This document shows, piece after piece, positions 8,437 to 62,229 of a stretch of DNA of 64,000 nt. The stretch is from Myxococcales bacterium (GTDB lineage: Bacteria; Myxococcota_A; Polyangia; Haliangiales; Haliangiaceae). The notes beneath the pieces were generated by a model, which saw only the letters and a program-made list of their open reading frames with translations, was not told the DNA's origin and ran no database searches. Location of the stretch: assembly GCA_016720595.1 (NCBI GenBank), contig JADKKI010000001.1:186001-250000 (forward strand), read 5' to 3'. The stretch's first letter is position 1, and each line of letters starts with the position of its first letter. Position numbers and translations under genes: made by a program.

Positions 8437-8450
8437 TCGCTACGCGGGCG

Positions 8451-50047: not shown

Positions 50048-50065
50048 CCGGACCGGCGCTCACAC

Positions 50066-51040: not shown

Positions 51041-51114
51041 GCGGGGAGCATACGACTCCATCGCCCGAATGCCCGGTTTTCGCGATGCGTGCGGCGCTGC
51101 GGTATCGTGCCGGC

Positions 51115-52104: not shown

Positions 52105-52186
52105 CGGATCGCTGCATCGACACCGCGAAACTGCTCGGGAACTTCGTACTCACGATCTCGAACAAATAATCTCTTCGTAAAAGGCT

Positions 52187-52215
52187 TTGACAGATCGAAG
52201 TAGCGCTGTTATCCG
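52187..52215 (+). promoter_or_regulatory. Candidate sigma-70-type promoter upstream of the array
   Basis: A perfect -35 hexamer TTGACA (52187-52192) is followed after 17 bases by TATCCG (52210-52215), a partial -10 match, inside an unusually AT-rich stretch (52150-52190) for this genome. It points into the tRNA/Ro60 region and is 82 bases past the lipid-kinase stop. Seen by eye only. Confidence 0.5.
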
Positions 52216-52221
52216 TATCAA

Positions 52222-52490
52222 CCATCGGCGGCTCGTTCTCGAGCGGTCGACCTACCAGGAACCCTCCGTGCGTCAACTCCACCCAAATAGCCCCAAACTG
52301 CCGGAAAGGACTTCGCCATCTTGGCGGCGAGCCTTTACGTCGGGTTGCTTGCTTACCTCCGCCTACGGCGTGGGAAGCGAGGATCAGGGTATTCGCGCTG
52401 GGGGCCCCCACCGCTAGTCTCAGTATGAACTGCGACTAGTCCGTCAGGGCCGCCCAGGGGAAGACCTCCCCCAAGCGGCCCTCATCGTTT
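52222..52490 (+). ncRNA. Candidate untranslated leader or small RNA between promoter and terminator
   Basis: Between the candidate promoter and a terminator-like hairpin lies about 270 bases with no ORF that looks coding. It contains several local hairpins (CGCC ATCTT GGCG near 52316-52328; a CTCCGCC/GGCGTGGG pairing near 52357-52374). I found no motif of tmRNA, SRP RNA, RNase P RNA or 6S RNA. It could be an independent RNA or the 5' part of the array transcript. Confidence 0.35.
52447..52490 (+). terminator. Rho-independent terminator-like hairpin
   Basis: A GGGCCGC/GCGGCCC stem (52447-52453 with 52475-52481) encloses a second GGGG/CCCC pairing and is followed by TCATCG and four T. It may end the short upstream RNA or attenuate transcription into the array. 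Confidence 0.5.
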
Positions 52491-52566
52491 TCGGCTTCGT
52501 CCTTCTGGTTCGGCGTTCCGGGTCCGGCATCCGACGCCAACACACAATCTGACTTTGCGACTCGTG

Positions 52567-52588
52567 ATCTGAACTACGTAGTTCAGAT
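52567..52588. promoter_or_regulatory. Perfect 22-bp palindrome within a longer dyad
   Basis: ATCTGAACTAC is followed directly by its exact reverse complement. Flanks continue with imperfect symmetry (GCGACTCG left, CGAATCGC right) to give a dyad of about 42 bases, 52557-52598. It could be an operator for the array or a cruciform/long-hairpin RNA. Confidence 0.55.
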
Positions 52589-52695
52589 GTCGAATCGCGA
52601 CAGGTGCGCCCGCGATCGCCGCGGATGCATCGAGGCCCGAGGTGCGCGCTGCGCACGACGGGACATCTCTGACAATCGAAGAGCTTTGATGATGC

Positions 52696-52755
52696 GGTGC
52701 CCTGGCAAGGGCACCATGAAACCAGCGCTGCGCGGTCAACGTGATCGCGCAGCGC
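52696..52755 (+). other. Two strong hairpins ahead of the first tRNA
   Basis: Bases 52696-52715 form an 8-bp stem (GGTGCCCT/AGGGCACC) with loop GGCA, and 52725-52755 a perfect 10-bp stem (GCGCTGCGCG/CGCGCAGCGC) with an 11-nt loop. They lie 7 bases before the first tRNA and may guide processing of the precursor or be small structured RNAs. Confidence 0.5.
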
Positions 52756-52761
52756 AAACTT

Positions 52762-52834
52762 CCCGCTCTTGCGTAGTTGGTCTGCGCGCTCGGCTGAAGC
52801 CCGAGAGGTTCTGGTTCGATTCCAGAGGGTGGGA
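52762..52834 (+). tRNA. tRNA-Phe (GAA)
   Basis: A cloverleaf folds by hand: acceptor CCCGCTC/GGGTGGG, D-loop with TTGG, anticodon stem CTCGG/CCGAG with loop CTGAAGC (anticodon 52796-52798), T-loop TTCGATT, A73. It starts with C1-G72, unlike ordinary bacterial tRNA-Phe. No CCA is encoded. First unit of the array. Confidence 0.85.
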
Positions 52835-52838
52835 CTGC

Positions 52839-52896
52839 GTGCGCGCGCCTCGTGCCGGCTAGACAACCGGCCCCTTCCCCCACGAGGCGCGCGCAC
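52839..52896 (+). ncRNA. Long perfect hairpin RNA, possible Y-RNA-like element
   Basis: A perfect 16-bp stem (GTGCGCGCGCCTCGTG at 52839-52854 with its complement at 52881-52896) encloses a 26-nt loop that has its own CCGG/CCGG hairpin. There is no T-run, so it is not a standard terminator. Its position between tRNA-Phe and tRNA-Lys and near a Ro60 gene makes a Y-RNA-like ligand worth testing; the known bacterial Ro-binding motif was not found. Confidence 0.4.
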
Positions 52897-52910
52897 TGCC
52901 AGGAGTGTTC

Positions 52911-52982
52911 GGGTTGGTAGCAACAAGGTGATGCACCGGTTTCTTAAACCGCGCGAGGTGGGTTCGATTCCCACTCAACCCA
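52911..52982 (+). tRNA. tRNA-Lys (CTT)
   Basis: Acceptor GGGTTGG/TCAACCC, D-stem GCA/TGC with GG in the loop, anticodon loop TTCTTAA (anticodon 52943-52945), T-arm GTGGG/CCCAC with TTCGATT, A73. The first anticodon-stem pair (27-43) is a C-C mismatch. No CCA encoded. Three small palindromic hairpins follow at 52999-53048 (GCGCC/GGCGC, TTGGTTCGAACCAA, GGTCTC/GAGACC). Confidence 0.85.
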
Positions 52983-53052
52983 CGAAGGATCAGCGAACGC
53001 GCCGATGGCGCCGACGTTGGTTCGAACCAAAGGTCTCGAACGAGACCGCCAA

Positions 53053-53124
53053 GCAGGTGAAGTGTTGTGGTGACACACCGGTGCGCCACACCGGAGTCGG
53101 AGGGTTCAATTCCCCCCACCTGCT
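53053..53124 (+). tRNA. tRNA-Gly (GCC)
   Basis: Acceptor GCAGGTG/CACCTGC with U73, the expected glycine discriminator; D-stem GTG/CAC, loop with GG; anticodon stem CCGGT/ACCGG with loop GCGCCAC (anticodon 53085-53087). Position 33 is C rather than the near-universal U. T-loop TTCAATT with one A-C mismatch in the T-stem. Confidence 0.78.
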
Positions 53125-53145
53125 CTAACTGCGTCGACTTCACTT

Positions 53146-53218
53146 TGCGTCCGAGCCCCAGCGGCTCGGGCCGGGCTGTTCGTCTCAGGTTCCCCGGGAA
53201 CACGACGAGAGCGACGCA
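53146..53218 (+). ncRNA. Branched structured RNA of unknown type
   Basis: The ends pair (TGCGTC/GACGCA) and enclose two arms: a CGAGCC/GGCTCG hairpin at 53151-53167 and a TCGTC/GACGA arm topped by GTTCC/GGAAC. Size is tRNA-like (73 nt), but there is no T-loop or recognisable anticodon. It could be a degenerate tRNA or a Ro60-associated RNA. Confidence 0.35.
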
Positions 53219-53232
53219 CCTTTCCTTCTCTT

Positions 53233-53303
53233 GCGGGCTTGGCCGATCGGTTAGGCAACGGGCTTCCACCCCGCCCAGGCCGGTTCGACTCCGGTGGTCC
53301 GCA
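53233..53303 (+). tRNA. tRNA-Gly (TCC)
   Basis: Acceptor GCGGGCT/GGTCCGC, D-stem GCC/GGC with GG in loop, anticodon loop CTTCCAC (anticodon 53265-53267), T-loop TTCGACT. The discriminator is A73 instead of the glycine U73, and the 27-43 pair is A-C. No CCA encoded. Confidence 0.82.
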
Positions 53304-53312
53304 CGATTCTTC

Positions 53313-53386
53313 GCCTCTCTAGCTCAGCAGGCAGCAGCAGCTGTTTCGTAAACAGCCGGTCGTCGGTTCGATTCCGACGGGAGGCA
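53313..53386 (+). tRNA. tRNA-Thr (CGT)
   Basis: A well-formed cloverleaf: acceptor GCCTCTC/GGGAGGC, D-stem GCT/AGC, anticodon stem GCTGT/ACAGC with loop TTCGTAA (anticodon 53347-53349), T-arm GTCGG/CCGAC with TTCGATT, A73. D-loop has GG. Last unit before the Ro60 gene. Confidence 0.88.
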
Positions 53387-53418
53387 CTCGCGATGACATG
53401 CACGTTCCCAACACTTCC

Positions 53419-53503
53419 GTCGCCACCCGGCGACGAGCCGCGTTGACTCGCGGCTGATCGCCACCCGGCGGTCGCTCTCACCAATGCCGCCCAGGTCCCT
53501 GGG
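53419..53503 (+). promoter_or_regulatory. Hairpin-rich leader of the Ro60 gene
   Basis: Four stem-loops in 85 bases: GTCGCC-ACCC-GGCGAC, GCCGCG-TTGACT-CGCGGC, GATCGCC-ACCC-GGCGGTC, and GCCCAG-GTCC-CTGGGC ending 2 bases before the GGAGG Shine-Dalgarno. The first and third share stem core and ACCC loop. This could autoregulate Ro60 translation or be a Ro60-binding RNA. Confidence 0.45.
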
Positions 53504-53517
53504 CCGGAGGAAAGCTC

Positions 53518-55179
53518 ATGTTCAAGTTCACCAAGTTCTTCTCGACCAAGGCCACCTCGCAGGATCAGCCGATCCCCGGAACCAGCCAGGTCCCCAACTC
53601 GGCCGGCGGCTATGGCTGGCAGCTCGATGACTGGGCGCGCCTCGATCGCTTCCTGGTGCTCGGGAGTGAGGGCGGCACCTACTACGTCGGAGAGCGCGAG
53701 CTGACCATCGAGAATGCCTCCACCGTCCAGCGGTGTCTCGCTGCCGACGGACTTCGTACCCTCGCTCGGATCGTTGATATCTCTCACTCGGGACGTGCGC
53801 CCAAGAACGATCCGGCGATCTTTTCCCTCGCGATGGCCGCCAAGCTCGGCGACGAGGCCACGCGTCGTGCGGCGTATGCCGCGCTGCCCAAGGTCTGCCG
53901 CACCGGCACCCACCTGATGCACTTCGCGGAGTACGCGCAGGGCTTCGGGGGATGGGGTCGCGGCATGCGCAAGGCGGTGGGCTCGTGGTTCAACGACAAG
54001 CCGGCCGAGGACCTCGCGTTCCAGCTCGCGAAGTACCAGTCCCGCGATGGCTGGTCGAACCGTGACCTGCTTCGTCTCGCGCACCCGCGCGCGGCGTCGC
54101 CGTCGCACGATCGGCTGTTCGCGTGGGCGGTGAAGGGCGAGCTGCCGGCCGGTGCCGAGTCGGATCCGGCGTGCCAGCTGATCGTGGCCATGACCGAGCT
54201 CAAGTCGGCCGGTGATGTCCATGCCGTGGCAACGCTCGTCCGCGAGCGTCGGATCCCGCGCGAGTGCGTGCCGACCGAGTGGCTCACGCGAGCCGAGGTC
54301 TGGGAGGCGCTGCTCGAGGCGATGCCGATGACGGCGATGATCCGGAACCTCGCGACGATGACTCGCGCGGGGCTCTTGGTCGCCGGCTCGAGCGCCGCCG
54401 CGCGCGTCGCCGCGCAGCTCCGCGATCCGCAGCGCCTCGCGAAGGCGCGCGTCCACCCGATCTCCGTGCTGTCCGCGCTCATGACCTACAAGTCGGGGCG
54501 AGGCGTGCGTGGGTCGGGGACGTGGGAGCCGGTGGCGTCGGTCGTCGACGCTCTCGACGCCGCGTTCTACGCGAGCTTCGGGGCGATCGAGCCGGCCGGC
54601 AAGCGCATGTTGCTCGCGCTCGATGTCTCGGGCTCGATGGGTTCGGGTGCCGTCTCGGGCATCCCGAGCCTGACCCCGCGTGTGGCGAGTGCCGCGATGG
54701 CACTCGTGACCGCGGCGACCGAGCGCGATCACACGTTCATCGCCTTCACCGCTGCGAGTGGTGGGTACGGTGGCCAGTGGGGTGGCGGTCAGTCGGGGAT
54801 CACCACGCTGCCGATCTCACCGCGGCAGCGTCTCGACGATGTGGTGAACGCAGTCGCGGCTCTCCCGATGGGTGGCACCGACTGTGCGCTGCCGATGATC
54901 TGGGCGGAGCAAAACCGAGTCGATGTGGATACGTTCTGTATCTACACCGACAACGAGACCTGGGCGGGGAACGTGCACCCGTCTCAGGCGCTGCGCTCGT
55001 ACCGAGATGCACGGGGAATTCCGGCCAAGCTGGTCGTGGTCGGAATGACGTCGAACGGGTTCAGCATTGCTGACCCGAACGACGCCGGTATGGTCGATGT
55101 TGTCGGCTTCGACACGTCGACTCCGCCGGTGATCGCCGACTTTGCTCGCGCGTCAGGGTCCCACCCGATCCTGTCGTAG
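53518..55179 (+). CDS. rsr: Ro60/Rsr RNA-binding protein (TROVE and vWA domains)
   Basis: A 553-residue orthologue-like member of the Ro 60-kDa autoantigen family. Residues about 25-340 form the alpha-helical TROVE ring (SKPKND-like SGRAPKNDPAIFSLAMAAKLGD; THLMHFAEYAQG; GWGRGMRKAVGSWF), which in relatives holds the 3' ends of misfolded RNAs in its hole and Y RNAs on its outer face. Residues about 360-553 are a vWA domain with an intact MIDAS: D369-x-S371-x-S373, T454 and D478. In Deinococcus, Rsr works with exonucleases in 23S rRNA maturation and stress rRNA turnover. The gene lies inside the tRNA array, has a GGAGG site and ends before a hairpin terminator. Confidence 0.93.
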   Translation: MFKFTKFFSTKATSQDQPIPGTSQVPNSAGGYGWQLDDWARLDRFLVLGSEGGTYYVGERELTIENASTVQRCLAADGLRTLARIVDISHSGRAPKNDPAIFSLAMAAKLGDEATRRAAYAALPKVCRTGTHLMHFAEYAQGFGGWGRGMRKAVGSWFNDKPAEDLAFQLAKYQSRDGWSNRDLLRLAHPRAASPSHDRLFAWAVKGELPAGAESDPACQLIVAMTELKSAGDVHAVATLVRERRIPRECVPTEWLTRAEVWEALLEAMPMTAMIRNLATMTRAGLLVAGSSAAARVAAQLRDPQRLAKARVHPISVLSALMTYKSGRGVRGSGTWEPVASVVDALDAAFYASFGAIEPAGKRMLLALDVSGSMGSGAVSGIPSLTPRVASAAMALVTAATERDHTFIAFTAASGGYGGQWGGGQSGITTLPISPRQRLDDVVNAVAALPMGGTDCALPMIWAEQNRVDVDTFCIYTDNETWAGNVHPSQALRSYRDARGIPAKLVVVGMTSNGFSIADPNDAGMVDVVGFDTSTPPVIADFARASGSHPILS

Positions 55180-55209
55180 CTGAGCGAAGGCGCGGCCCTG
55201 CGACCGCTG

Positions 55210-55229
55210 CCGGTGGGGCAACCCACCGG
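55210..55229 (+). terminator. Hairpin after the Ro60 gene
   Basis: A perfect 8-bp stem (CCGGTGGG/CCCACCGG) with a GCAA tetraloop, followed by TATTT and, 6 bases later, the next tRNA. It probably ends or separates the Ro60 mRNA from the following tRNA precursor. Confidence 0.55.
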
Positions 55230-55234
55230 TATTT

Positions 55235-55308
55235 GGGATCGAAGCTGAGCTGGTGCTAGCGGCCGATTGTTAATCGGACGGTGGTTGGTTCAATTCCAAC
55301 CGATCCCG
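55235..55308 (+). tRNA. tRNA-Asn (GTT)
   Basis: Acceptor GGGATCG/CGATCCC with G73 as expected for asparagine; D-stem GCT/AGC with GG in loop; anticodon loop TTGTTAA (anticodon 55269-55271); T-arm GTTGG/CCAAC with TTCAATT. The 27-43 pair is G-A. No CCA encoded. Confidence 0.87.
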
Positions 55309-55362
55309 CGTGTGTGCGTGTCCTTCCGTCCTCGTCTCAACGGGCCGAAAGGCGTCGATTAT

Positions 55363-55392
55363 CCGTAACTATAACGGTCCTAAGGTAGCGAA
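55363..55392 (+). other. Isolated 23S rRNA helix 69/71 fragment (I-CeuI target sequence)
   Basis: Thirty bases starting CCGTAACTATAACGG and ending CCTAAGGTAGCGAA are identical to the most conserved stretch of bacterial 23S rRNA (about E. coli 1908-1937, from memory), which spans helix 69 and the start of helix 71 and contains the full I-CeuI homing-endonuclease target. Flanking bases do not continue as 23S rRNA, so this is not part of an rRNA gene. It can still fold as the H69 hairpin (CCGT, 7-nt loop, ACGG). Confidence 0.85.
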
Positions 55393-55593
55393 CCTCCGGC
55401 GACGGAGTTAGCGAAGCAGCAGGCTCTCTCGTCGCGCGAGTGACGAGCAACGCTTCGGCCAGAGCTCATTGCGTGCCCACTGCCGTCAACCCGGAAACGG
55501 GCGCGGTAAGAGCGACTGGTTCGGGATCACCGGGCGACCGGTGCGAACGAGCCATCTTCGACGCCGATCCTTGTCCGTGCTTTTTCCTGCGCT
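55393..55593 (+). other. Structured spacer without an identifiable tRNA
   Basis: About 200 bases with local hairpins (CTCCG-GCGA-CGGAG at 55394-55407; CTCGTC/GACGAG at 55427-55446; ACCCGGAAACGGGC near 55489-55502; GTTCG/CGAAC at 55519-55549). No anticodon arm plus T-loop combination could be assembled. It may hold further degenerate tRNA or rRNA-like pieces. Confidence 0.35.
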
Positions 55594-55677
55594 GGAAGAT
55601 GATCTCGCGGTGGCGCGAGCGCCGGTTGCTAACCGGATGGTCCCGTGAGGGATGCAGTTCGACTCTGCCGTCTTCCG
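55594..55677 (+). tRNA. tRNA-Ser (GCT)
   Basis: A class II tRNA: acceptor GGAAGAT/GTCTTCC, G73 (serine), D-loop with GG, anticodon arm CCGG-TTGCTAA-CCGG (anticodon 55628-55630), long variable arm with TCCC-GTGA-GGGA, T-loop TTCGACT. One extra base separates acceptor and D-stem, and the 27-43 pair is G-A. Confidence 0.85.
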
Positions 55678-55686
55678 CGCGATCCT

Positions 55687-55758
55687 GTCCGTGTCGTACA
55701 GCAGCAAGTACTCCGGTCTCTCTAACCGGCTACGCGGGTGCAAGTCCCGCCACGGATA
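55687..55758 (+). tRNA. tRNA-Glu (CTC)
   Basis: Acceptor GTCCGTG/CACGGAT, D-stem GTAC/GTAC, anticodon stem CCGGT/ACCGG with loop CTCTCTA (anticodon 55720-55722), T-arm GCGGG/CCCGC. The D-loop is AGCAGCAA (GC, not GG) and the T-loop is TGCAAGT (TGC, not TTC): the first of the exchanged-loop class. Confidence 0.83.
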
Positions 55759-55770
55759 CCAACCTCTCTG

Positions 55771-55852
55771 GCCTTCGGCGCTTCCCGCGGCGTCGCGATT
55801 CTCCGCAGCTGCTGGCGTGGTCGCCAGCTCCGCAGCTCGTGCTGGGCACCGC
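55771..55852 (+). repeat. Spacer repeat copy and truncated tRNA-Met 5' half
   Basis: Bases 55771-55793 (GCCTTCGGCGCTTCCCGCGG + CGT) recur at 56111 and 56291. Bases 55811-55852 duplicate, with a 7-base insertion, the segment 55875-55908 that forms the 5' half of the next tRNA, so this is a remnant of an unequal duplication. Confidence 0.6.
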
Positions 55853-55887
55853 CGGGCGGGGTGGCGGGGGCGGGGCTGGCGTGGTCG

Positions 55888-55956
55888 CGCAGCTCGTGCT
55901 GGGCACCGACGCGGCCCATAACCGCGTACGCGAGGGTTCAATTCCCTCAGCTGCGA
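55888..55956 (+). tRNA. tRNA-Met-like (CAT), shortened D-arm
   Basis: Acceptor CGCAGCT/AGCTGCG, anticodon stem CGCGG/CCGCG with loop CCCATAA (anticodon 55917-55919), T-arm GAGGG/CCCTC with TTCAATT, A73. The D region is only about 13 bases (TGC-TGG-GCA core) and position 33 is C. C1 pairs with G72, unlike the mismatch of bacterial initiator tRNA. The anticodon could also be that of a tRNA-Ile2. Confidence 0.65.
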
Positions 55957-56056
55957 CCGCAGTGCTTCCGGTGAAGCGACGATCGATCGCGTTAGCCGCG
56001 CGATCGATCCGTTCGTCCGCGCGAACGAACGATGGGTTCAACTCCCTCCACTGCGG
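55957..56056 (+). ncRNA. tRNA-like RNA with an 11-bp anticodon-type stem (loop TTAGCCG)
   Basis: Begins directly after the previous discriminator. Ends pair over 8 bp (CCGCAGTG/CACTGCGG). Inside are a short arm CTTC-CGGT-GAAG, an 11-bp perfect stem (GATCGATCGCG with its complement, 55981-55991 and 55999-56009) with 7-nt loop TTAGCCG, an extra CGTTCG/CGAACG arm in the variable position, and a T-arm TGGG-TTCAACT-CCCT. The loop would give anticodon AGC (Ala). Too large to be an ordinary tRNA; structured like a multi-arm tRNA mimic. Confidence 0.55.
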
Positions 56057-56080
56057 CCAGTCAGATCGAATCGCTCGATC

Positions 56081-56108
56081 ACACGTTCGATGACACGTTC
56101 GATGACAC
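56081..56108 (+). repeat. Tandem 12-mer repeat
   Basis: ACACGTTCGATG occurs twice in tandem plus a partial third copy (ACAC), in the spacer before the duplicated tRNA-Ser block. Likely a replication-slippage product. Confidence 0.7.
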
Positions 56109-56409
56109 GCGCCTTCGGCGCTTCCCGCGGCGTTGCGACTCCTCGGAACGACAATTTCGCTTTGGAAGGTAAGGTCGCGGTTGGCGCGACGCCGGTCTCG
56201 AGTACCGGATGCCCTGATGGGACGGGTTCTTCGGCCGCACTCCGAGTCCGTACTCTTCCGCGACGGGGCCTGGAGACCGGCGGGGAACGCGCCTTCGGCG
56301 CTTCCCGCGGCGTTACGACTCCTCGGAACGACAAGTTCGCTTTGGAAGGTAAGGTCGCGGTTGGCGCGACGCCGGTCTCGAGTACCGGATGCCCTGATGG
56401 GACGGGTTC
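56107..56409 (+). repeat. 180-bp offset tandem duplication (two 123-bp copies)
   Basis: Copies 56107-56229 and 56287-56409 differ at only 2 of 123 bases. Each contains the spacer repeat and the first three quarters of a tRNA-Ser(CGA). The copies then diverge abruptly inside the T-loop. The near identity indicates a recent event. Confidence 0.85.
56164..56260 (+). pseudogene. tRNA-Ser (CGA) copy with an insertion in the T-arm
   Basis: Identical to the intact copy at 56344 through GACGGGTTC, then about 20 extra bases interrupt the T-loop before a slightly altered 3' acceptor (ACTCTTCCG against ACCTTCCG). As written, no T-arm of normal size forms. Either a dead copy or a precursor whose insert is removed. 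Confidence 0.65.
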
Positions 56410-56426
56410 GACTCCTGTACCTTCCG
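56344..56426 (+). tRNA. tRNA-Ser (CGA)
   Basis: Class II tRNA: acceptor GGAAGGT/ACCTTCC, G73, D-stem GTCG/CGAC with GG, anticodon stem CCGGT/ACCGG with loop CTCGAGT (anticodon 56379-56381), variable arm with CCC-TGAT-GGG, T-loop TTCGACT. Confidence 0.85.
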
Positions 56427-56431
56427 CGACG

Positions 56432-56531
56432 CGAGGTATTACGTGGCGTAGCTCAAGCAGCAGAGCGCGTGGTCCAAGAGAGCGCGTGGTCGGGGACCAC
56501 GAGGCCGCTGGTGCGATTCCAGTCATCTCGA
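56432..56531 (+). tRNA. tRNA-Pro (GGG) with two insertions
   Basis: Removing 10 bases after acceptor position 6 (ATTACGTGGC) and one copy of an 18-base direct repeat (AGAGCGCGTGGTC core) leaves a perfect tRNA: acceptor CGAGGTG/CATCTCG, D-arm GCTC-AAGCAGCA-GAGC, anticodon stem CGTGG/CCACG with loop TCGGGGA (anticodon 56492-56494), T-loop TGCGATT. GC/TGC loop class. Position 33 is C. As encoded it is 100 nt. Confidence 0.65.
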
Positions 56532-56532
56532 C

Positions 56533-56656
56533 GAACAGGTGTCGTCCAACAGCAGGACACCGAGCACAGCGTCGGTCGTCACTTTGCCCGGGTCCGGGCC
56601 GTAGCTCGATGCTTATCTCACCTCGGAGATGCCGGTGCGACTCCGGCCACCTGTTC
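56533..56656 (+). tRNA. tRNA-like gene with a 57-nt anticodon loop (intron-like insertion)
   Basis: A 9-bp end stem (GAACAGGTG/CACCTGTTC) includes acceptor ACAGGTG/CACCTGT. D-arm GTCC-AACAGCA-GGAC, anticodon stem CCGAG/CTCGG, 4-base variable loop and T-arm GCCGG-TGCGACT-CCGGC are all perfect, but the anticodon loop spans 56565-56621 (57 nt, containing a GCCCGG/CCGGGC hairpin) instead of 7. If the insert lies 5' of the anticodon, the loop end TCTCAC gives CTC; isotype unresolved. Confidence 0.6.
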
Positions 56657-56662
56657 ATGCAC

Positions 56663-56733
56663 GCCACCGTTCCGCGGAACGGGACACGATTCTGCGAAGA
56701 TCGTCGGCAGAGGTTCAACTCCTCTCGGTGGCA
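56663..56733 (+). tRNA. tRNA-Arg (GCG)
   Basis: Acceptor GCCACCG/CGGTGGC, anticodon stem CGATT/GATCG with loop CTGCGAA (anticodon 56694-56696), T-arm AGAGG/CCTCT with TTCAACT, A73. The D region (CCGCGGAACGG) forms only a 3-bp stem or an alternative pairing, so the D-arm is unusual. Confidence 0.75.
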
Positions 56734-56749
56734 CTTTCGGTTTTGCGTC

Positions 56750-56814
56750 GCGCCGTCTGGGACGGTGCCGGATTCCAACCCCGGCTATGCAGCGTTCGAT
56801 TCGCTGGCGGCGTG
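56750..56814 (+). tRNA. tRNA-Trp (CCA) with almost no D-arm
   Basis: Acceptor GCGCCGT/GCGGCGT, G73 (correct for Trp), anticodon arm CCGG(A)-TTCCAAC-(C)CCGG (anticodon 56775-56777, A-C at 31-39), T-arm CAGCG/CGCTG with TTCGATT. Only nine bases lie between positions 9 and 27, too few for a normal D-arm; total length 65 nt. Confidence 0.7.
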
Positions 56815-56820
56815 CCACGT

Positions 56821-56891
56821 GCGTGGAGGTCTGGAAACCACGTCGGCATTCGAAGCCGACCGTCATTCGGGTTCGATTCCCGATTCACGCG
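56821..56891 (+). tRNA. tRNA-Arg (TCG), minimal D-arm
   Basis: Acceptor GCGTGGA/TTCACGC, G73, anticodon stem of 6 bp GTCGGC/GCCGAC with loop ATTCGAA (anticodon 56850-56852), T-arm TCGGG/CCCGA with TTCGATT. The D region is reduced to about 13 bases with a TGG-AAA-CCA core. Confidence 0.75.
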
Positions 56892-56987
56892 CTCTCGTTT
56901 CGCCTGGTCGCTCTCACGAGCGGACGGGCCGCCGTGTGGTGTGACAGCCGCTGGATCATCTCTGGCCTTTCGACACGGCAACTCTTC
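56892..56987 (+). other. Spacer with two paired elements, no clear tRNA
   Basis: CGCTC-TCAC-GAGCG (56910-56923) is a simple hairpin. Bases 56931-56937 (GCCGTGT) pair perfectly with 56973-56979 (ACACGGC) like an acceptor stem, but the 35 bases between do not fold into tRNA arms. Possibly a truncated unit. Confidence 0.3.
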
Positions 56988-57059
56988 CTAGGTGTGGCTC
57001 AAGAGCGGAGCACTCGGTTCGGGACCGAGACAATGCAGGTGCGACTCCTGTCACCTAGA
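56988..57059 (+). tRNA. tRNA-Pro (CGG)
   Basis: Acceptor CTAGGTG/CACCTAG, D-arm GCTC-AAGAGCG-GAGC, anticodon stem CTCGG/CCGAG with loop TTCGGGA (anticodon 57020-57022), T-arm GCAGG/CCTGT with loop TGCGACT, A73. GC/TGC loop class; otherwise complete. Confidence 0.85.
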
Positions 57060-57064
57060 CGCAT

Positions 57065-57173
57065 GCGGACGTAGCTCAACGGGTAGAGCACCTTCCCCGG
57101 CCGATAGTTCGCCCGCTCGCGGGCCGATGATTCGGGGTTCTCGCGGTTGTCGGTTCGAGTCCGATCGTCTGCA
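57065..57173 (+). tRNA. tRNA-Ile-like (GAT) with duplicated anticodon-loop segment
   Basis: Acceptor GCGGACG/CGTCTGC, D-arm GCTC-AACGGGTA-GAGC, T-arm GTCGG/CCGAT with TTCGAGT, A73 are all normal. The anticodon region is enlarged: a CCCCG/CGGGG stem encloses two similar 13-mers (GGCCGATAGTTCG, GGCCGATGATTCG) around a CCCG-CTCG-CGGG hairpin; each 13-mer could present GAT. Total 109 nt. Confidence 0.5.
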
Positions 57174-57184
57174 CGTTCTTCGCT

Positions 57185-57291
57185 CGCATCTCGAATCCGT
57201 CTGCACTCACCTCGCTCGCTTCGGCGAGCCGACCGTGGACGGTTACCTGGTAAGGCCGCAAGGCCCGTGGTTCGAAGCCACACGAGATGCG
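57185..57291 (+). ncRNA. tRNA-like RNA with 9-bp end stem, isotype unresolved
   Basis: Ends pair perfectly (CGCATCTCG/CGAGATGCG). A T-arm (GTGG-TTCGAAG-CCAC) and a class II-style variable hairpin (GGCC-GCAA-GGCC) precede the 3' end. The 5' half instead has a very stable GCTCGC-TTCG-GCGAGC hairpin and a CCGTC/GACGG pairing; no 7-nt anticodon loop is evident. Perhaps a Leu-type tRNA mimic. Confidence 0.4.
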
Positions 57292-57300
57292 CGCGTTCCT

Positions 57301-57371
57301 CCGCCCTTAGCTCAACAGCAGAGTGCCCGGCAGATAACCGGGCGATCGGGGTGCGATTCCTCGAGGGCGGA
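57301..57371 (+). tRNA. tRNA-Ile (GAT)
   Basis: Acceptor CCGCCCT/AGGGCGG, D-arm GCTC-AACAGCA-GAGT, anticodon stem CCCGG/CCGGG with loop CAGATAA (anticodon 57333-57335), T-arm CGGGG/CCTCG with TGCGATT, A73. GC/TGC class. Position 33 is A, which is very rare in working tRNAs. Confidence 0.75.
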
Positions 57372-57373
57372 CT

Positions 57374-57447
57374 GTGATCGAGGCCGAAGTAGTCGAGGCA
57401 CGTGGATGTGGACCACGGCGAAGCGGGTGCGAGTCCCGTCGATCACC
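57374..57447 (+). tRNA. tRNA-His (GTG)
   Basis: Acceptor GTGATCG/CGATCAC with C73, the histidine discriminator; D-stem GCC/GGC with loop GAAGTAGTCGA; anticodon stem CGTGG/CCACG with loop ATGTGGA (anticodon 57408-57410); T-arm with TGCGAGT. The extra G-1 usually encoded for tRNA-His is absent (T at that position). Confidence 0.82.
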
Positions 57448-57461
57448 CCATGCATGCACAC

Positions 57462-57546
57462 GGAGGCGTTGACGGTAGAGATCACCGAGGCTGCCTGTAA
57501 AGCAGTCGCCCTTGCGGACAACTGGGTGCGAGTCCCAGCGCCTCCA
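57462..57546 (+). tRNA. tRNA-Tyr (GTA)
   Basis: Acceptor GGAGGCG/CGCCTCC, anticodon stem GCTGC/GCAGT with loop CTGTAAA (anticodon 57497-57499), a long variable region as expected for Tyr, T-arm CTGGG/CCCAG with TGCGAGT, A73. The D-arm (CGGT-AGAGATC-ACCG) is set two bases off the usual position and has no GG. Confidence 0.8.
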
Positions 57547-57571
57547 CGAACGAGCTCGAGTTGCTGCTTTT

Positions 57572-57643
57572 TGCGGAGAGAGTGCGAGTTCTCAGCCAGG
57601 TCTCATACGCCAGGCCACGCCGGTGCGACTCCGGCCTCCGCTA
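57572..57643 (+). tRNA. tRNA-Met (CAT)
   Basis: Acceptor TGCGGAG/CTCCGCT (the first pair is T-T), anticodon loop CTCATAC (anticodon 57604-57606) on a stem with an A-A mismatch, T-arm GCCGG/CCGGC with TGCGACT, A73. D region GAG-TGCGAGTT-CTC. The weak first pair recalls initiator tRNA, but the anticodon stem lacks the three G-C pairs. Confidence 0.65.
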
Positions 57644-57644
57644 C

Positions 57645-57717
57645 GCCGCCGTAGACCAACAGCAGAGTCAGTGGTCTGAGAGGCCATCCAGTGGAGGTGC
57701 AAATCCTCTCGGCGGCA
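57645..57717 (+). tRNA. tRNA-Leu (GAG), class I form
   Basis: Acceptor GCCGCCG/CGGCGGC, D-arm GAC-CAACAGCAGA-GTC, anticodon stem GTGGT/GCCAT with loop CTGAGAG (anticodon 57678-57680), 5-base variable loop, T-arm GGAGG/CCTCT with TGCAAAT, A73. Bacterial tRNA-Leu normally has a long variable arm; this one does not. Close paralogue of 57737-57809 but with GC/TGC loops. Confidence 0.8.
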
Positions 57718-57736
57718 CGCCTGCGTTTGACGTCCT

Positions 57737-57809
57737 GCCGCCGTAGACCAACGGAAGAGTCGGTGGTCTCAGAAGCCATTCAGTGGAGGTTCGAATCCTC
57801 TCGGCGGCA
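57737..57809 (+). tRNA. tRNA-Leu (CAG), class I form
   Basis: Same acceptor and stems as the previous unit, anticodon loop CTCAGAA (anticodon 57770-57772), 5-base variable loop, but D-loop CAACGGAAGA (GG) and T-loop TTCGAAT (TTC). The pair shows both loops switching together on one tRNA backbone. Confidence 0.82.
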
Positions 57810-57912
57810 CCCCATCAGCTTGCCCGCGTCGTGCGGGCCGGTGAAGCGAAGCGGTCCGGCGCTCGCTCCACATCAAATCCCGGACCAGCCCAGATCGAAA
57901 AGGGTACGAGCC

Positions 57913-58473
57913 ATGATGCACGTCGACACGACTCGGACGCTACTGCTGACCATGGGCTACGAGCCCATCAAGATCATCTCGTGGCAGCGCGCGATGACGC
58001 TCCTCACGCTCGACAAGGTCGAGGTCGTCGAGGAGTACGACATGGAGATTCGCGGCACGTCGATGATCCTCAACGTGCCGGCGGTCGTCCGTCTCCGCAA
58101 GGCGTTCCGCCGCTTCGCGAAGCCGGTGAAGTTCTCGCGCGTGAACATCTACGCGCGTGACGAGTACCGCTGCCAGTACTGCGGTGTGAAGTGCTCGATC
58201 GCGCAGCTCACGTACGACCACGTGGTCCCGCGTTCGCGCGGCGGTCGGACGTCGTGGGACAACATCGTGTCGTGCTGCTACGTGTGCAACGCCAAGAAGG
58301 CGAACCGCACGCCGGCAGAGGCGAAGATGGTGCTCCGCTCGACGCCGGTTCGTCCGACGTGGATGCCGGCGATCCAGATCCGCGTGAGCACGAAGTCGGT
58401 CCCGGACGCGTGGCGTGACTACGTGTACTGGACAGGCGAGATCGACACGGACGAGGGGACGGAGATCGTGTGA
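57913..58473 (+). CDS. HNH endonuclease
   Basis: A 186-residue protein. The N-terminal domain (LLLTMGYEPIKIISWQRAMTLL, then VEVVEEYD) is the conserved lead-in of a widespread solitary HNH family; the nuclease core is C87-x2-C90, DHVVPRSRGG (D102, H103), WDNIV (N117) and C122-x2-C125-N, so the zinc-bound beta-beta-alpha-metal site is intact. The product is probably a DNA nicking or cutting enzyme; tRNA-array homing or phage-defence roles are open. It sits inside the tRNA array with about 100 bases on each side before the next tRNA and is followed by a strong terminator. Confidence 0.9.
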   Translation: MMHVDTTRTLLLTMGYEPIKIISWQRAMTLLTLDKVEVVEEYDMEIRGTSMILNVPAVVRLRKAFRRFAKPVKFSRVNIYARDEYRCQYCGVKCSIAQLTYDHVVPRSRGGRTSWDNIVSCCYVCNAKKANRTPAEAKMVLRSTPVRPTWMPAIQIRVSTKSVPDAWRDYVYWTGEIDTDEGTEIV

Positions 58474-58480
58474 GTGATGA

Positions 58481-58516
58481 CGGCGGTCGCGGGTGCGGCA
58501 ACGCGCGCGACCGCCG
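58481..58516 (+). terminator. Terminator-like hairpin after the HNH gene
   Basis: A perfect 11-bp GC stem (CGGCGGTCGCG with its complement) and a 14-base loop begin 7 bases after the HNH stop. No T-run follows, so it may slow or process rather than strictly terminate. Confidence 0.5.
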
Positions 58517-58558
58517 CATCCAGGTGTCTTCCCGGTTTCACATCATCAAGGCTCGCGA

Positions 58559-58630
58559 GCGGGTGTGCGTCCAACGGCACGACGGCGGACTTTGACTCCG
58601 ACGATGCAGGTTCGACTCCTGCCACCCGTA
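58559..58630 (+). tRNA. tRNA-Gln (TTG)
   Basis: Acceptor GCGGGTG/CACCCGT, D-stem CGTC/GACG with CAACGGCAC loop, anticodon arm CGGA-CTTTGAC-TCCG (anticodon 58592-58594), T-arm GCAGG/CCTGC with TTCGACT, A73. Position 26 is missing and 27-43 is G-A. Confidence 0.8.
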
Positions 58631-58640
58631 CTCGCTACCT

Positions 58641-58714
58641 GGGGGAGTAGTTCAACTGGCAGAACACAGCGCTCTGAACGCTCGAGGTTGATCGTTCGAA
58701 TCGATCCTCCCCTT
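58641..58714 (+). tRNA. tRNA-Gln (CTG)
   Basis: Acceptor GGGGGAG/CTCCCCT, D-arm GTTC-AACTGGCA-GAAC, anticodon stem AGCG/CGCT with loop CTCTGAA (anticodon 58674-58676), T-arm GATCG/CGATC with TTCGAAT. The 27-43 pair is C-C. Discriminator is T rather than the usual G73 of tRNA-Gln. Confidence 0.8.
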
Positions 58715-58732
58715 CCAACGCCTTCCAACACT

Positions 58733-58803
58733 GGGCCTATCGTCGAATGGGAAGACGCTGCGCTTGCAACGCAGAGATCAGGGTTCGATTCCCTGTCGGT
58801 CCA
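58733..58803 (+). tRNA. tRNA-Ala (TGC)
   Basis: Acceptor GGGCCTA/TCGGTCC carrying G3-U70, the alanine identity pair, with one T-C mismatch at 6-67. D-stem GTC/GAC with GG, anticodon stem CTGCG/CGCAG with loop CTTGCAA (anticodon 58765-58767), T-arm CAGGG/CCCTG with TTCGATT, A73. Confidence 0.88.
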
Positions 58804-58815
58804 CGAAGTTTGTCT

Positions 58816-58888
58816 GCCCCTGGAGTCGTCTGGTGACGACGCCTGATTGTCGATCAGTAGTAGGCCGGTTCAATCCCGGTCAGGGGCG
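58816..58888 (+). tRNA. tRNA-Asp (GTC)
   Basis: Acceptor GCCCCTG/CAGGGGC with G73 (aspartate), D-stem GTCG/CGAC with GG, anticodon loop TTGTCGA (anticodon 58849-58851), T-arm GCCGG/CCGGT with TTCAATC. The 27-43 pair is C-T. Confidence 0.87.
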
Positions 58889-58899
58889 CGCGTCGTTCT

Positions 58900-58970
58900 G
58901 GGCCTGTCGTTCAACAGCAGGATGTTCCCCTCGCACGGGAGCGATACGGGTGCGACTCCCGTCTGGTCCA
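58900..58970 (+). tRNA. tRNA-Ala (CGC)
   Basis: Acceptor GGGCCTG/CTGGTCC with G3-U70 and a T-T mismatch at 6-67; D-loop CAACAGCAG; anticodon stem TTCCC/GGGAG with loop CTCGCAC (anticodon 58932-58934); T-arm ACGGG/CCCGT with TGCGACT; A73. GC/TGC class, in contrast to the TTC-class tRNA-Ala(TGC) nearby. Confidence 0.85.
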
Positions 58971-58974
58971 CCAC

Positions 58975-59045
58975 GCACTCGTGGCCGAGTAGTCAGGCCT
59001 GCGGCTGCAACCCGCATCACCTCGGTGCAACTCCGAGCGAGTGCT
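58975..59045 (+). tRNA. tRNA-Cys (GCA)
   Basis: Acceptor GCACTCG/CGAGTGC with U73, the cysteine discriminator; D-stem GCC/GGC with loop GAGTAGTCA; anticodon stem TGCGG/CCGCA with loop CTGCAAC (anticodon 59007-59009); T-arm CTCGG/CCGAG with TGCAACT. Shares the GTAGTC D-loop with tRNA-His. Confidence 0.86.
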
Positions 59046-59060
59046 CCAGCTCTTCGTCTT

Positions 59061-59133
59061 CCGGGCCAGCTCACCTAGGGGTGAGACCGTTCTTACAAAG
59101 CGGCCGTGCAGGGTGCGATTCCCTGGGTCCGGA
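59061..59133 (+). tRNA. tRNA-Val (TAC)
   Basis: Acceptor CCGGGCC/GGTCCGG, D-arm CTCA-CCTAGGGG-TGAG, anticodon stem CCGTT/AGCGG with loop CTTACAA (anticodon 59094-59096), T-arm CAGGG/CCCTG with TGCGATT, A73. The one unit that has GG in the D-loop together with a TGC T-loop. Confidence 0.85.
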
Positions 59134-59141
59134 CCACACTT

Positions 59142-59209
59142 GCCTCCGCGCACAGATGCGACCCGGGTCTCCGAAGCCTGGTGAGGTGGTGCGATTCCAC
59201 CCGGTGGCA
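59142..59209 (+). tRNA. tRNA-Arg (CCG), short D-arm
   Basis: Acceptor GCCTCCG/CGGTGGC with one T-T mismatch, anticodon stem CGGGT/GCCTG with loop CTCCGAA (anticodon 59171-59173), T-arm GGTGG/CCACC with TGCGATT, A73. The D region is about 13 bases (CGC-ACAGAT-GCG). Last unit of the array; the next gene's stop is 13 bases away. Confidence 0.78.
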
Positions 59210-59222
59210 CGAAGCGCTGCGA

Positions 59223-59693
59223 TCAGTCCATGTCGACGTCGACGGACTCGGCCTTTTTTTTCGGCGGCGGCGGCGGGCCCTTGCGGACCTTCTCGAACGT
59301 CTCGCGGAGCTCCTCGACCTCGACGTCGACGGTGAGACCGGCGAGCGCATCGGCGGGGAGGAACAGCGCCCCGGCGAGATCGCGGAGGTACTCGTCCTCC
59401 GAGAAATCGACCTCTTCGTCGGCGTCGTTCACGGCGGCGACGAGGAACAGGATCTTGCGGCGATCGTCATCGCTGTCCGAGGCGAACGCTCCGGCGGTGC
59501 GCAGCAGATCGAACTTCTTCGGATCGAAGGCGTCGATCTGCTTCTCGATATCGGCGGGCAACGTGCCGCCGCTCAGGTCGGCGAGCATCCCCTTGACCTC
59601 ATCGCGCTCCCCATCCTTGAACTGCGCATCCGCGTACGCGGCGCCGAGCAAGAGATCACACAGGGGTCCGATCCGATCCGAGAGCGAGGACAT
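59223..59693 (-). CDS. TerB-like acidic protein
   Basis: A 156-residue protein that runs toward the array. Helical segments DLLLGAAYADAQFKDGERDEVKGML and ILFLVAAVNDADEEVDFSEDEYLRDLA match the TerB/tellurite-resistance helical domain with its acidic metal-binding residues. The tail is Pro/Lys/Asp-rich. Start at 59693 removes a long unsupported extension. Role unknown; TerB-like domains occur in stress and phage-response modules. Confidence 0.75.
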   Translation of the reverse strand: MSSLSDRIGPLCDLLLGAAYADAQFKDGERDEVKGMLADLSGGTLPADIEKQIDAFDPKKFDLLRTAGAFASDSDDDRRKILFLVAAVNDADEEVDFSEDEYLRDLAGALFLPADALAGLTVDVEVEELRETFEKVRKGPPPPPKKKAESVDVDMD

Positions 59694-59774
59694 GCCTGGA
59701 ACATACAGCGATGCTCGGCTTCCGCTACGCTGAGGCGTGCCATATCGCGAGCCGAGCACCGGACCGGGCGTCCC

Positions 59775-61382
59775 ATGAGGCGCCTCGCTTTCAGCCTCGC
59801 GCTGTTCGCCGCGTGTCACGGATCTCCGCGCTCTCCGCGTGTTCCTCCGCCGGTGCCCAAGCTCGTGGTGATGATCGTGATCGATCAGCTCCCTAGTTGG
59901 GCGTTCGAGCGCGATCGTGCGCTGTTCCACGGTGGTCTCGGTCGCTTGCTGCGCGAGGGCGCCTACGTCAAGCGTGCCACGCTCCCGTACGCCAGCACGT
60001 TCACCGCTCCCGGGCACGCCACGATCGCCACCGGCACCACCCCGAGCGTTCACGGCGTGGTCGGCAACCAGTGGTGGCGTCGCGCCGAGGCGCGCGAACG
60101 TCCCGCCGAGTTCGATCCGGCCGCGGCCGTGCTCCCGGTGGGCCCGCTCGAGGCGCCGCTCCCCGCGGACGATGTGGCTTCGGCGCGCGTGCTTCGCGTT
60201 GCTGGCGTGGCGGATGCGCTGCGCACGGCGACCCACGGGCGCGGTCATGCGATCGCGGTCGCGCTCAAGCCGCGATCGGCGTGCCTGGTCTCGGGGCAAC
60301 ATCCGGAGCTCGCGATCTGGTTCGACTCCGGAGCGGGCGGGATGACGACGAGCACGGCATATGCGACCGCCGCACCCGCCTGGCTCGTGGAGCATGCGCG
60401 CACGCATCCAGCGAATCACTTCATCGGTCAGACCTGGTCCCCCCTCGATCCGGACGTGCTCGCGAAGCACACCGGGATCGTGGACGATGCGCCGGGCGAG
60501 GGCAGCCTCCACGGCATGGGCACCGCGTTCCCGCACGTGGTGCACGACCCCGAGGAGCTGCTGCACACGCCGTTTGGCGATCAGCTGGTGATGGGCGCGG
60601 CGCTGGCTGCGCTCGATCCCACCCAGCTCGGCGCCGATGACGTCCCCGATCTCCTCGCCATCAGCTTCTCGGCGCACGACTATGCCGGCCACAACTGGGG
60701 GCCGGATTCGTGGGAGGTCCTCGATCTCACGCTCCGGCTCGATGCCGCTCTCGGTGAGCTGTTCACCACCCTCGATCGGCGCCTGGGCAAGGATGGCTGG
60801 GCCGTCGTGTTGACGAGCGATCACGGCGCGACCCCGCTCGTCGAGCGCTCGCCCGTCGTCGGGGCGCGCCGGCTCGTTCCGTCGGAGATCGCCACGGCGG
60901 GTGGCCCGCTGGTCGCGAAGGTCAGCTCGAATCAGGTCTACATGTCCGCGGCATGGGGCCAGCTCCCCGCGGCGGAGCAGCGTGCCGCGCTCGCGACCAC
61001 GGCCTCGGAGATCCGCGCCGCGTTCCCTGCACTCGACGTGTTCGACACCGCGGATGCGTCGCACTGCCGTGAACCCGGGCTCGCCGGTGACATCTGTCGC
61101 TCGGTCGTCACGGGCGAATCGGGCGAGCTCTACCTCGCGCCTCACCGCGGCTTCGTGGTGACCGAGTACAAGACCGGTACGCACCACGATGCACCGAACG
61201 CCGACAACCAGGAGGTCCCGATCCTGGTGCGGGCGCCGGGCGTGGCTCCGCAGACCATCGAGCGCGCCTCGTTCCTGCAGATCGCGCCCACGGTCGCGGC
61301 GCTGCTCGGCGTGCCGCCACCGGCGTCTGCTACCGCGTCGACGCTGTTCGGGATCGTGGCTCGCTCGCCAGCTGGGCCTTGA
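59775..61382 (+). CDS. Alkaline-phosphatase-superfamily lipoprotein (PafA-like)
   Basis: A 535-residue predicted lipoprotein (lipobox FAAC). The core has LVVMIVIDQL with the first metal Asp, the nucleophile Thr in STFTAPGHATIATGT, GVVGNQWW, and later SFSAHDYAGH and LTSDHGA metal-ligand motifs. This matches PafA/type I phosphodiesterase-phosphatases that act on phosphate esters in the periplasm. Its 3' end overlaps the convergent AlkB-like gene by 53 bases. Confidence 0.88.
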   Translation: MRRLAFSLALFAACHGSPRSPRVPPPVPKLVVMIVIDQLPSWAFERDRALFHGGLGRLLREGAYVKRATLPYASTFTAPGHATIATGTTPSVHGVVGNQWWRRAEARERPAEFDPAAAVLPVGPLEAPLPADDVASARVLRVAGVADALRTATHGRGHAIAVALKPRSACLVSGQHPELAIWFDSGAGGMTTSTAYATAAPAWLVEHARTHPANHFIGQTWSPLDPDVLAKHTGIVDDAPGEGSLHGMGTAFPHVVHDPEELLHTPFGDQLVMGAALAALDPTQLGADDVPDLLAISFSAHDYAGHNWGPDSWEVLDLTLRLDAALGELFTTLDRRLGKDGWAVVLTSDHGATPLVERSPVVGARRLVPSEIATAGGPLVAKVSSNQVYMSAAWGQLPAAEQRAALATTASEIRAAFPALDVFDTADASHCREPGLAGDICRSVVTGESGELYLAPHRGFVVTEYKTGTHHDAPNADNQEVPILVRAPGVAPQTIERASFLQIAPTVAALLGVPPPASATASTLFGIVARSPAGP

Positions 61383-62166: not shown

Positions 62167-62229
62167 GCCGGAGCCGTCTTTAGCACTGTGCGCACGCAAC
62201 CGCGCAGCGGTGTGGCCGAAACCCGTCCC

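Follow-up and report, generated by a model that had tools for sequence, protein, structure and literature searches.

The purpose of transfer RNA (tRNA) arrays is an open question. What, in particular, would such an array be doing around a gene for Ro60? The locus that raises this lies in a stretch of 64,000 nucleotides (nt), the window, taken from a Myxococcales bacterium (contig JADKKI010000001.1, positions 186,001 to 250,000). Within 6.4 kilobases (kb) of it stand 29 short and 3 longer tRNA-like units, all on the + strand, with genes for Ro60 and an HNH endonuclease among them. The original prediction, made from the letters alone, had seen here a back-up or decoy set of tRNAs linked with RNA surveillance. 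That tRNA arrays occur with HNH genes, and with TROVE genes, is known already; the real finding is three features of the array itself, namely hybrids of tRNA and Y RNA, a mimic of 23S ribosomal RNA (rRNA) helix 69-71, and a coupled switch of the tRNA elbow. Ro60 appears to be more than a bystander, since the array includes RNAs with Ro60-type arms. The features that matter most are these.

53518..55179, + strand: Ro60/Rsr gene, 553 amino acids, with TROVE and vWA_Ro60 (Pfam)
55338..55440, + strand: 23S helix 69-71 mimic, 106.8 bits with model R2 (a training sequence of that model), exact 29-base motif
56535..56655, + strand: hybrid B, Ro60-strand motif at 56596, 92.8 bits with model R1 (training sequence), fold z -1.59
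57065..57173, + strand: hybrid A, without a clear anticodon arm, RF00005 43.3 bits, R1 91.9 bits (training sequence)
57187..57290, + strand: hybrid C, 104 nt, acceptor stem and T-arm kept, no D-arm, fold z -2.68, loose motif (variant at 57226)
57913..58473, + strand: HNH endonuclease gene, 186 amino acids (Pfam HNH in the longer frame 57691-58473)

The window protein has both the TROVE ring and the vWA domain, as in Ro60/Rsr, and matches solved Ro60 and Rsr relatives with E values of 1e-125 to 1e-127; with the NCBIfam Rsr model it scores 593 bits, below the cut-off of 900, and so misses the equivalog threshold. The start of the HNH gene at 57913 is a choice based on alignment with relatives. 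The presence of both genes inside the array, as predicted, was confirmed by Pfam.

The hybrids are the first of the three features. In units of 109-133 nt an extra hairpin is placed between the D-arm and the anticodon arm, and in many of them the 3' strand of this insert reads GGGCCG...GGTTATC. That the 109-nt unit holds an intron was rejected, since the insert of relatives precedes the anticodon arm and does not interrupt it. In an alignment of 13 hybrids, 29 pairs are 95.8% formed and 19 of the 29 show changes on both sides, a level that no shuffle out of 500 matched on any measure, the structure used for these pair counts being derived from the same alignment. The lower stem of the insert carries double changes in 8 of its 8 pairs. 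Folded singly, seven of eight hybrids beat the shuffle mean (z -1.54 to -2.23), hybrid A being the exception. Of 35 genomes of the related order, 14 have long matches to model R1, which was built on the 13 hybrids; 8 of these are training genomes. The model also matched in Tautonia, a training member that we take to be a planctomycete, where the match lies beside Ro60. Judged by their sequences, then, the hybrids appear to combine a Ro60-type stem with tRNA-like D, T and acceptor arms, the type of the stem being assigned by motif only.

That motif has the form of the 3' insert strand and, as we take it, resembles the Ro60-binding strand of vertebrate Y RNAs. A total of 716 kb of sequence contains 49 examples, whereas block-shuffled copies average 3.4. 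In its strict form it occurs 47 times in 33 Ro60 loci, 47 of 47 on the Ro60 strand and 45 within 5 kb, so placed in 24 of the 33 loci; a looser form gave 71 occurrences on the Ro60 strand and 3 on the opposite one. All these counts are descriptive, because the motif was framed after several of the counted sequences were known. Loci bearing it include the viral L017-L020, phage Sparky and the actinobacterium Nonomuraea, with copies upstream of Ro60 in the viruses and the actinobacterium, and on the viral contig L017 (9290-9710) four such motifs stand upstream of the viral Ro60.

In topology, the hybrids are un-permuted Y RNAs. They resemble the bacterial Y RNA YrlA (RF02553), which likewise combines a Ro60-binding stem with a tRNA-like module of D, T and acceptor arms (PMC8394870; here and below, statements from cited papers refer to the portions of text that were available). 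In YrlA, however, the Ro60 stem encloses T-arm, acceptor hairpin and D-arm (Rfam alignment; PMC8394870), whereas the Ro60-type stem of the hybrids is a closed hairpin. The two are circular permutations of each other: the ends of YrlA form the Ro60 stem, those of a hybrid the acceptor stem. The hybrids thereby suggest a possible route from tRNAs to the permuted Y RNAs of bacteria. The YrlA model itself (gathering score 69 bits) reached 22.7 bits in the window and 30.5 bits across two adjoining hybrids of L009, with no match at the gathering score in covariance scans of relatives. When four non-myxobacterial loci were scanned at a relaxed threshold, all 4 showed matches upstream of Ro60 that fall short of the gathering score (L017, L023, L025 and L027), and L025 has no strict motif despite its YrlA match. 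The latter locus, on a Bosea plasmid (7968-17000), holds Ro60 with the YrlA-like RNA upstream and annotations of an aminoacyl-tRNA hydrolase, a seryl-tRNA ligase and a GIY-YIG nuclease nearby.

The second feature is a piece of 23S rRNA. From 55363 the window reads CCGTAACTATAACGG, one base, then CCTAAGGTAGCGA, which is 23S helix 69 and the strand that follows it; among the matches listed, E. coli 23S matches the mimic exactly over 30-33 bases. Its parts are a Ro60-strand motif (55342-55363), the helix 69 copy (55363-55377), the CCTAAGGTAGCGA strand and then a GNRA-type hairpin. The element is present in 11 of 16 arrays (the window, L001, L003, L005-L010, L012 and L015), on the Ro60 strand, and lies directly 3' of a tRNA-Asn or tRNA-Glu in 10 of the 11, L006 having no ARAGORN tRNA there. 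The Ro60-strand motif opens it in the window, L001 and L003, and a TTACC variant does so in most others. At the corresponding place L016 (8964-9034) carries a plain Y-RNA-like stem with the motif after tRNA-Asn (z -2.24), and L002 a motif variant without helix 69.

Helix 69 itself is nearly invariant; the GNRA-type hairpin, at the position of helix 71, has both partners changed in 3 of its 5 pairs, and the element's covariation score and number of changed cells exceed those of all 500 shuffles. A first RNAalifold structure (GGGCCG with CGGNCC) was rejected: it competes with helix 69 and has no double changes there, and the 23S-like pairing was therefore counted instead. With model R2 the 11 elements, 10 of them training sequences, score 85-110 bits and a true 23S gene 30.7 bits; elements found later score 91.9, 73.1, 54.8 and 45.4 bits. 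The large-subunit rRNA model gave no match up to E = 1 in positions 50000-64000 of the window, and a search of 10 relatives for host 23S genes gave no match. The single viral match to the helix 69 pattern was a true 23S gene and was set aside. Motifs for further rRNA landmarks, among them the sarcin-ricin loop, decoding site, 530 loop, peptidyl-transferase loops and A-loop, were sought in 21 sequences; matches were few and weak and lay outside the arrays, apart from a 14-base match with 2 mismatches in L010 and tRNA T-arms that fit the tmRNA pattern.

Across the order, 13 of 35 genomes have a helix 69 match and 12 of these 13 have Ro60. The remaining one, G019, carries a variant element (L105, 5910-6015) on an 8 kb contig without tRNAs, and its genome gave no Ro60 match. 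Among 377 genomes of the phylum, under stricter filters, the element appeared in seven, six of the same order and the distant G377, where it lies inside a 35-tRNA array with a 51%-identical HNH protein and a Ro60 relative of 26% identity. Absence in these searches is weak, since the best 100-116 candidates per genome were scored in the 35-genome searches and the best 10 in the 377-genome search.

The third feature concerns the tRNA elbow, where positions 18 and 55 meet. The pair is G18-psi55 in PMC4810234, which calls psi55 universally conserved and counts RNase P and RNase Z among the elbow's readers; the available text describes no A18-G55 version. In the arrays this pair has changed on both sides together, a coupled re-wiring from G18-U55 to A18-G55. 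Of 321 scan rows of up to 100 nt from 16 arrays (longer units were excluded), 196 are G18G19/U55 and 81 are A18G19/G55; mixed rows are few (GG/G55 8, AG/T55 2), and 34 are unclassed, one being GG/C55 and 33 having a D-loop in neither class. The Fisher value of 3e-59 for this coupling counts related units as if they were independent and should not be read as a probability. Both elbow states occur in 12 of the 32 anticodon groups with at least four members, although the Met group may mix different tRNAs, and the switch is therefore likely to have happened repeatedly. G55 is found in 12 of the 29 short units of the window. Spread over many isotypes, and involving a position 55 that PMC4810234 presents as universally conserved, this switch amounts to a natural experiment on the elbow.

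How do these units compare with ordinary tRNAs? The close relative G001 has 56 tRNA matches, 17 of them on the array contig. Thirty-eight of the 39 others were re-read (the 39th, at 30.2 bits, was left out), giving 17 isotypes by name and 1 unassigned gene. The D-loop of all 38 has GG, the T-loop as parsed has TTC in 36, TCC in 2 and TGC in none, and the A18-G55 elbow occurs in 0 of 38. In 19 pairs of array and housekeeping tRNAs with the same anticodon, acceptor stems are 45% identical (37% in 779 unmatched pairs), T-arms 67% (62%) and anticodon loops, anticodon included, 75% (43%); the discriminator is the same in 15 of the 19. Discriminator and anticodon are features commonly read by synthetases. 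The array tRNAs are thus far from copies, yet they keep features of this sort. A separate ordinary set is found in this relative as 38 genes outside the array contig, with Ile, Tyr and Trp unassigned in an incomplete bin. The idea of a back-up or decoy set tied to RNA surveillance gains partial support from this separate set and from the Ro60-arm RNAs within the array.

The locus is not confined to one genome. In a collection with one genome per species, the window Ro60 found 16 loci, 15 in Myxococcales, Kofleriaceae and Deltaproteobacteria bins, plus Tautonia. Ro60 is present in 20 of the 35 genomes of the related order, to which one of these loci belongs, and all 20 have ARAGORN tRNA genes near it (at least four in 18), so that the association of Ro60 with tRNA arrays reported from the window extends to its relatives. 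The loci poorest in tRNA genes are L016 with two and L006 with one; the latter (10001-12600) keeps Ro60, the helix 69 element and the HNH gene, and may represent the system's core. In 15 of the 20 an HNH relative accompanies Ro60 within the stretch examined; of the loci without one, L002, L003, L011 and L104 stop soon after Ro60, and none was seen in L013. In G020 an array with hybrids stands without a Ro60 match on a contig that ends there. Three arrays contain a gene for an ATP-dependent RNA ligase of the DRB0094 kind (L007 8940-9941, L008 14174-15175 and L010 4956-5957), which scores 72.8 bits with Pfam RNA_ligase, above the cut-off, and 138.5 bits with TIGR02306, below the cut-off of 151.

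Several known systems share parts of this architecture. Mycobacteria have tRNA arrays with HNH (PMC5966550, PMC12803027); these arrays, and those of mycobacterial phages and plasmids, are like the window's in being dense (19-20 amino acids in M. avium), divergent from the chromosomal set and interrupted by HNH. The available texts mention no Ro60, tRNA-Y hybrids or rRNA mimic (PMC5966550, PMC12803027), and the window locus differs further in flanking genes conserved in one clade. In archaeal tRNA clusters a TROVE gene occurs in 20 of 29 (PMC6333295), as in the window, but in another domain of life, and Y RNA hybrids and rRNA copies go unmentioned in the text available. The array is consequently less novel than first thought: the original prediction did not recognise a full-set chromosomal array around Ro60, and TROVE clusters in archaea and HNH arrays in mycobacteria are in print. 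The Anabaena trn operon, repressed by TrcR, silent until translation stress and induced by translation inhibitors, is likewise a separate tRNA set, with HNH and RtcB de-repressed alongside; unlike the window, it comes without the term "Ro60" in the main text as available (PMC10272220). The Nostoc plasmid array differs from the window in having no helix 69 match. Finally, Ro60-RtcB RNA repair operons resemble the window's relatives in joining Ro60 to RNA-repair genes, such as the ligase of the three arrays, but the ligase family differs and the available texts mention no tRNA array (PMC7790460, PMC8394870). Among the matches listed from the open-access literature, no title or start of an abstract dealt with tRNA-Y hybrids, with tRNA arrays that carry a copy of helix 69, with the elbow switch or with arrays of this kind in Myxococcota.

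What, then, is the locus for? The helix 69 copy and the Ro60-type arms suggest that this kind of array is not merely a store of spare tRNAs. We favour, with a probability of roughly 0.4, a Ro60-centred survival kit against damage to the RNAs of translation. What the sequences show is composition, conservation, the coupled elbow change and the association with the motif; transcription of the array, charging of its tRNAs, binding of its special RNAs by Ro60 and any function are inferred. Under translation stress the array is predicted to be transcribed and processed. Its tRNAs would replace housekeeping tRNAs lost to cleavage or inactivation, with discriminators and anticodons kept and the elbow often changed. 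The hybrids and the helix 69 RNA would be carried by Ro60 as predicted Y RNAs, whose displayed module is a whole tRNA or a piece of 23S, and they may direct the complex to enzymes or substrates of tRNA and large-subunit rRNA. Accessory roles in repair or processing could fall to the HNH protein and to the RNA ligase of the three related arrays. A precedent is the Anabaena operon described above, which translation stress brings out of silence (PMC10272220). A more specific version, which we hold only tentatively, gives Ro60 interchangeable display modules, shaped like tRNA or like 23S helix 69, with which it senses, shields or clears damage to both RNAs, beside a tRNA set with the re-wired A18-G55 elbow. 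If so, the display ends would imitate two RNAs that meet in the ribosome, and the A18-G55 elbow would mark many array members off from housekeeping tRNAs. The hybrids and the helix 69 RNA are in any case concrete molecules for a pull-down.

A number of results speak against a survival kit of this kind. A promoter scan of the array saw no sigma-70 promoter. The fold of hybrid A is no better than shuffles (z 0.19), and neither is the folding energy of the helix 69 element, whose number of pairs with double changes was reached by 127 of 500 shuffles; a partner strand for the element's Ro60 motif was looked for and none was found. The helix 69 match is absent in 8 of the 20 Ro60-bearing genomes, and within 5 kb of Ro60 the strict motif is missing from 9 of the 33 loci, in counts that are in any case descriptive. 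With Ile, Tyr and Trp genes unassigned in G001, perhaps through gaps of the bin, its housekeeping set may fall short of full redundancy. By ARAGORN's placement of the anticodon, U33 is absent in 5 of 21 array tRNAs of L001, compared with 0 of 38 housekeeping tRNAs, which speaks against ordinary decoding for some array tRNAs; G55 may do so too.

These last observations fit a possible alternative that comes close behind the reserve kit, because a piece of 23S cannot be a spare part. The units would be baits that soak up nucleases or modifying enzymes attacking tRNAs and 23S helix 69-71, with Ro60 holding or clearing used baits. An isolated 23S fragment is no possible spare for the ribosome, yet it is kept inside tRNA arrays; the changed elbow and loss of U33 suit RNAs with no need to decode; and L006 has retained Ro60, element and HNH with its single ARAGORN tRNA. 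Yet discriminators and anticodons are largely kept, beyond the needs of a generic bait, and the anticodon loop, the usual nuclease target, is no exact copy of the housekeeping loop at 75% identity, anticodon included.

We consider it rather doubtful that the array is an anti-defence device or relic of a mobile element that arrived with a phage or plasmid and stayed. Ro60 relatives do occur in 340 phage records, phage Sparky has four tRNAs by its Ro60, and 2 of 8 plasmid loci with HNH relatives, from Nostoc and Acidiphilium, hold arrays. But only 8 of 72,556 plasmid records have a Ro60 relative, none of the 8 plasmid loci with HNH relatives has a helix 69 match, and no integrase or phage gene is among the 7 flanking genes tested. 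Moreover, the genes flanking the window's array are common to L001-L005, L016, L102 and L108, which indicates a site that is old, chromosomal and fixed in that clade; within the stretches examined they gave no match at other loci. Two of the plasmid loci deserve mention in their own right. L116, from Acidiphilium, packs 37 ARAGORN tRNA genes around the HNH relative in 16.6 kb, with no helix 69 match; in L110, from Acaryochloris (7989-10379), the HNH relative adjoins a methionyl-tRNA ligase gene and ARAGORN finds 0 tRNAs in 16 kb.

Very improbable, in our view, is that the helix 69 element serves as a DNA target site and not as an RNA mimic. Its conserved core spans what we take to be the homing site of I-CeuI, an HNH gene is nearby, and its folding energy, as noted, does not exceed that of shuffles. 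A target site, however, does not account for a mid-site base that varies, for conservation that reaches the 5' strand of helix 69, for the hairpin with compensatory changes downstream and the Ro60-type motif upstream, or for L012, readable as a U-A to A-U swap in helix 69 with a loop one base shorter. Least credible of all is a decaying pseudogene array without function, which one unit with an internal duplication, one truncated copy and model scores below those of the housekeeping tRNAs in G001 might suggest, but which covariation already largely refutes, given complete seven-pair acceptor stems in 24 of the 29 short units, coupled 18-55 changes and compensatory changes in the hybrids.

The array itself is much as the original prediction described it. 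About 34 tRNA units on one strand had been proposed, right within two of the 29 short and 3 long ones counted here, and in the anticodon loops folded by script every one of the 20 amino acids is represented (F K G T N S E M R W P I H Y L Q A D C V). On reading the units, the discriminators are G73 in Asp, Asn, Ser and Trp, U73 in Cys and one Gly, and C73 in His, and both tRNA-Ala units have G3-U70, all as stated. The claim that no CCA is encoded holds only for the most part, since 7 of the 29 short units have CCA immediately after the discriminator. ARAGORN found 22 tRNA genes, every one on the + strand, between 52762 and 59048 (about 6.3 kb). Covariance models, which might have rejected most units, accepted many: cmscan of 50000-64000 gave 18 RF00005 matches, every one over the 29-bit gathering score and one falling on a long unit, and there are matches in relatives too. 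A T-arm/acceptor scan, with rows of fewer than 6 acceptor pairs left out, gave 32 rows, namely 29 short units, 2 long units and 1 spurious overlap (53093); the third long unit, 57187-57290, lies outside its rows. The overlap at 53093 and row 56432, whose anticodon the folding script misread, were retained in the scan, elbow and anticodon counts. Acceptor stems of the short units have 7 pairs in 24 of 29 and 6 pairs in 5 of 29.

Between them, ARAGORN, cmscan, the T-arm/acceptor scan and the folded loops supply the evidence for the following units:

52762-52834, + strand: Phe GAA
52911-52982, + strand: Lys CTT
53053-53124, + strand: Gly GCC
53233-53303, + strand: Gly TCC
53313-53386, + strand: Thr CGT
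57301-57371, + strand: Ile GAT
57374-57447, + strand: His GTG
57462-57546, + strand: Tyr GTA
57572-57643, + strand: Met CAT
57645-57717, + strand: Leu GAG
57737-57809, + strand: Leu CAG
within 58559..59209, + strand: Gln TTG, Gln CTG, Ala TGC, Asp GTC
within 58559..59209, + strand: Ala CGC, Cys GCA, Val TAC, Arg CCG

For these it comes, taken together, from ARAGORN, the T-arm/acceptor scan and the folded loops:

55594-55677, + strand: Ser GCT
55687-55758, + strand: Glu CTC
55888-55956, + strand: Met CAT
56344..56426, + strand: tRNA-Ser CGA unit
56663-56733, + strand: Arg GCG
56745-56814, + strand: Trp CCA
56821-56891, + strand: Arg TCG

Four further units rest on other combinations of evidence:

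55235..55308, + strand: tRNA-Asn GTT unit (ARAGORN, cmscan)
about 56164-56245, + strand: truncated Ser CGA copy, within the direct repeat 56090-56430 (read from the sequence)
56432..56532, + strand: Pro(GGG)-like unit with a 17-base tandem duplication in the D-arm (by eye)
56988..57059, + strand: tRNA-Pro CGG with the A18/G55 elbow (ARAGORN, cmscan, folded loop)

ARAGORN reads the region of the Pro(GGG)-like unit (56442-56532) as Leu AAG; at the corresponding place L001 has a Pro GGG unit. Terminator-like sites number 3, against 4.5 expected, and one of them, at 59238, lies directly past the end of the array.

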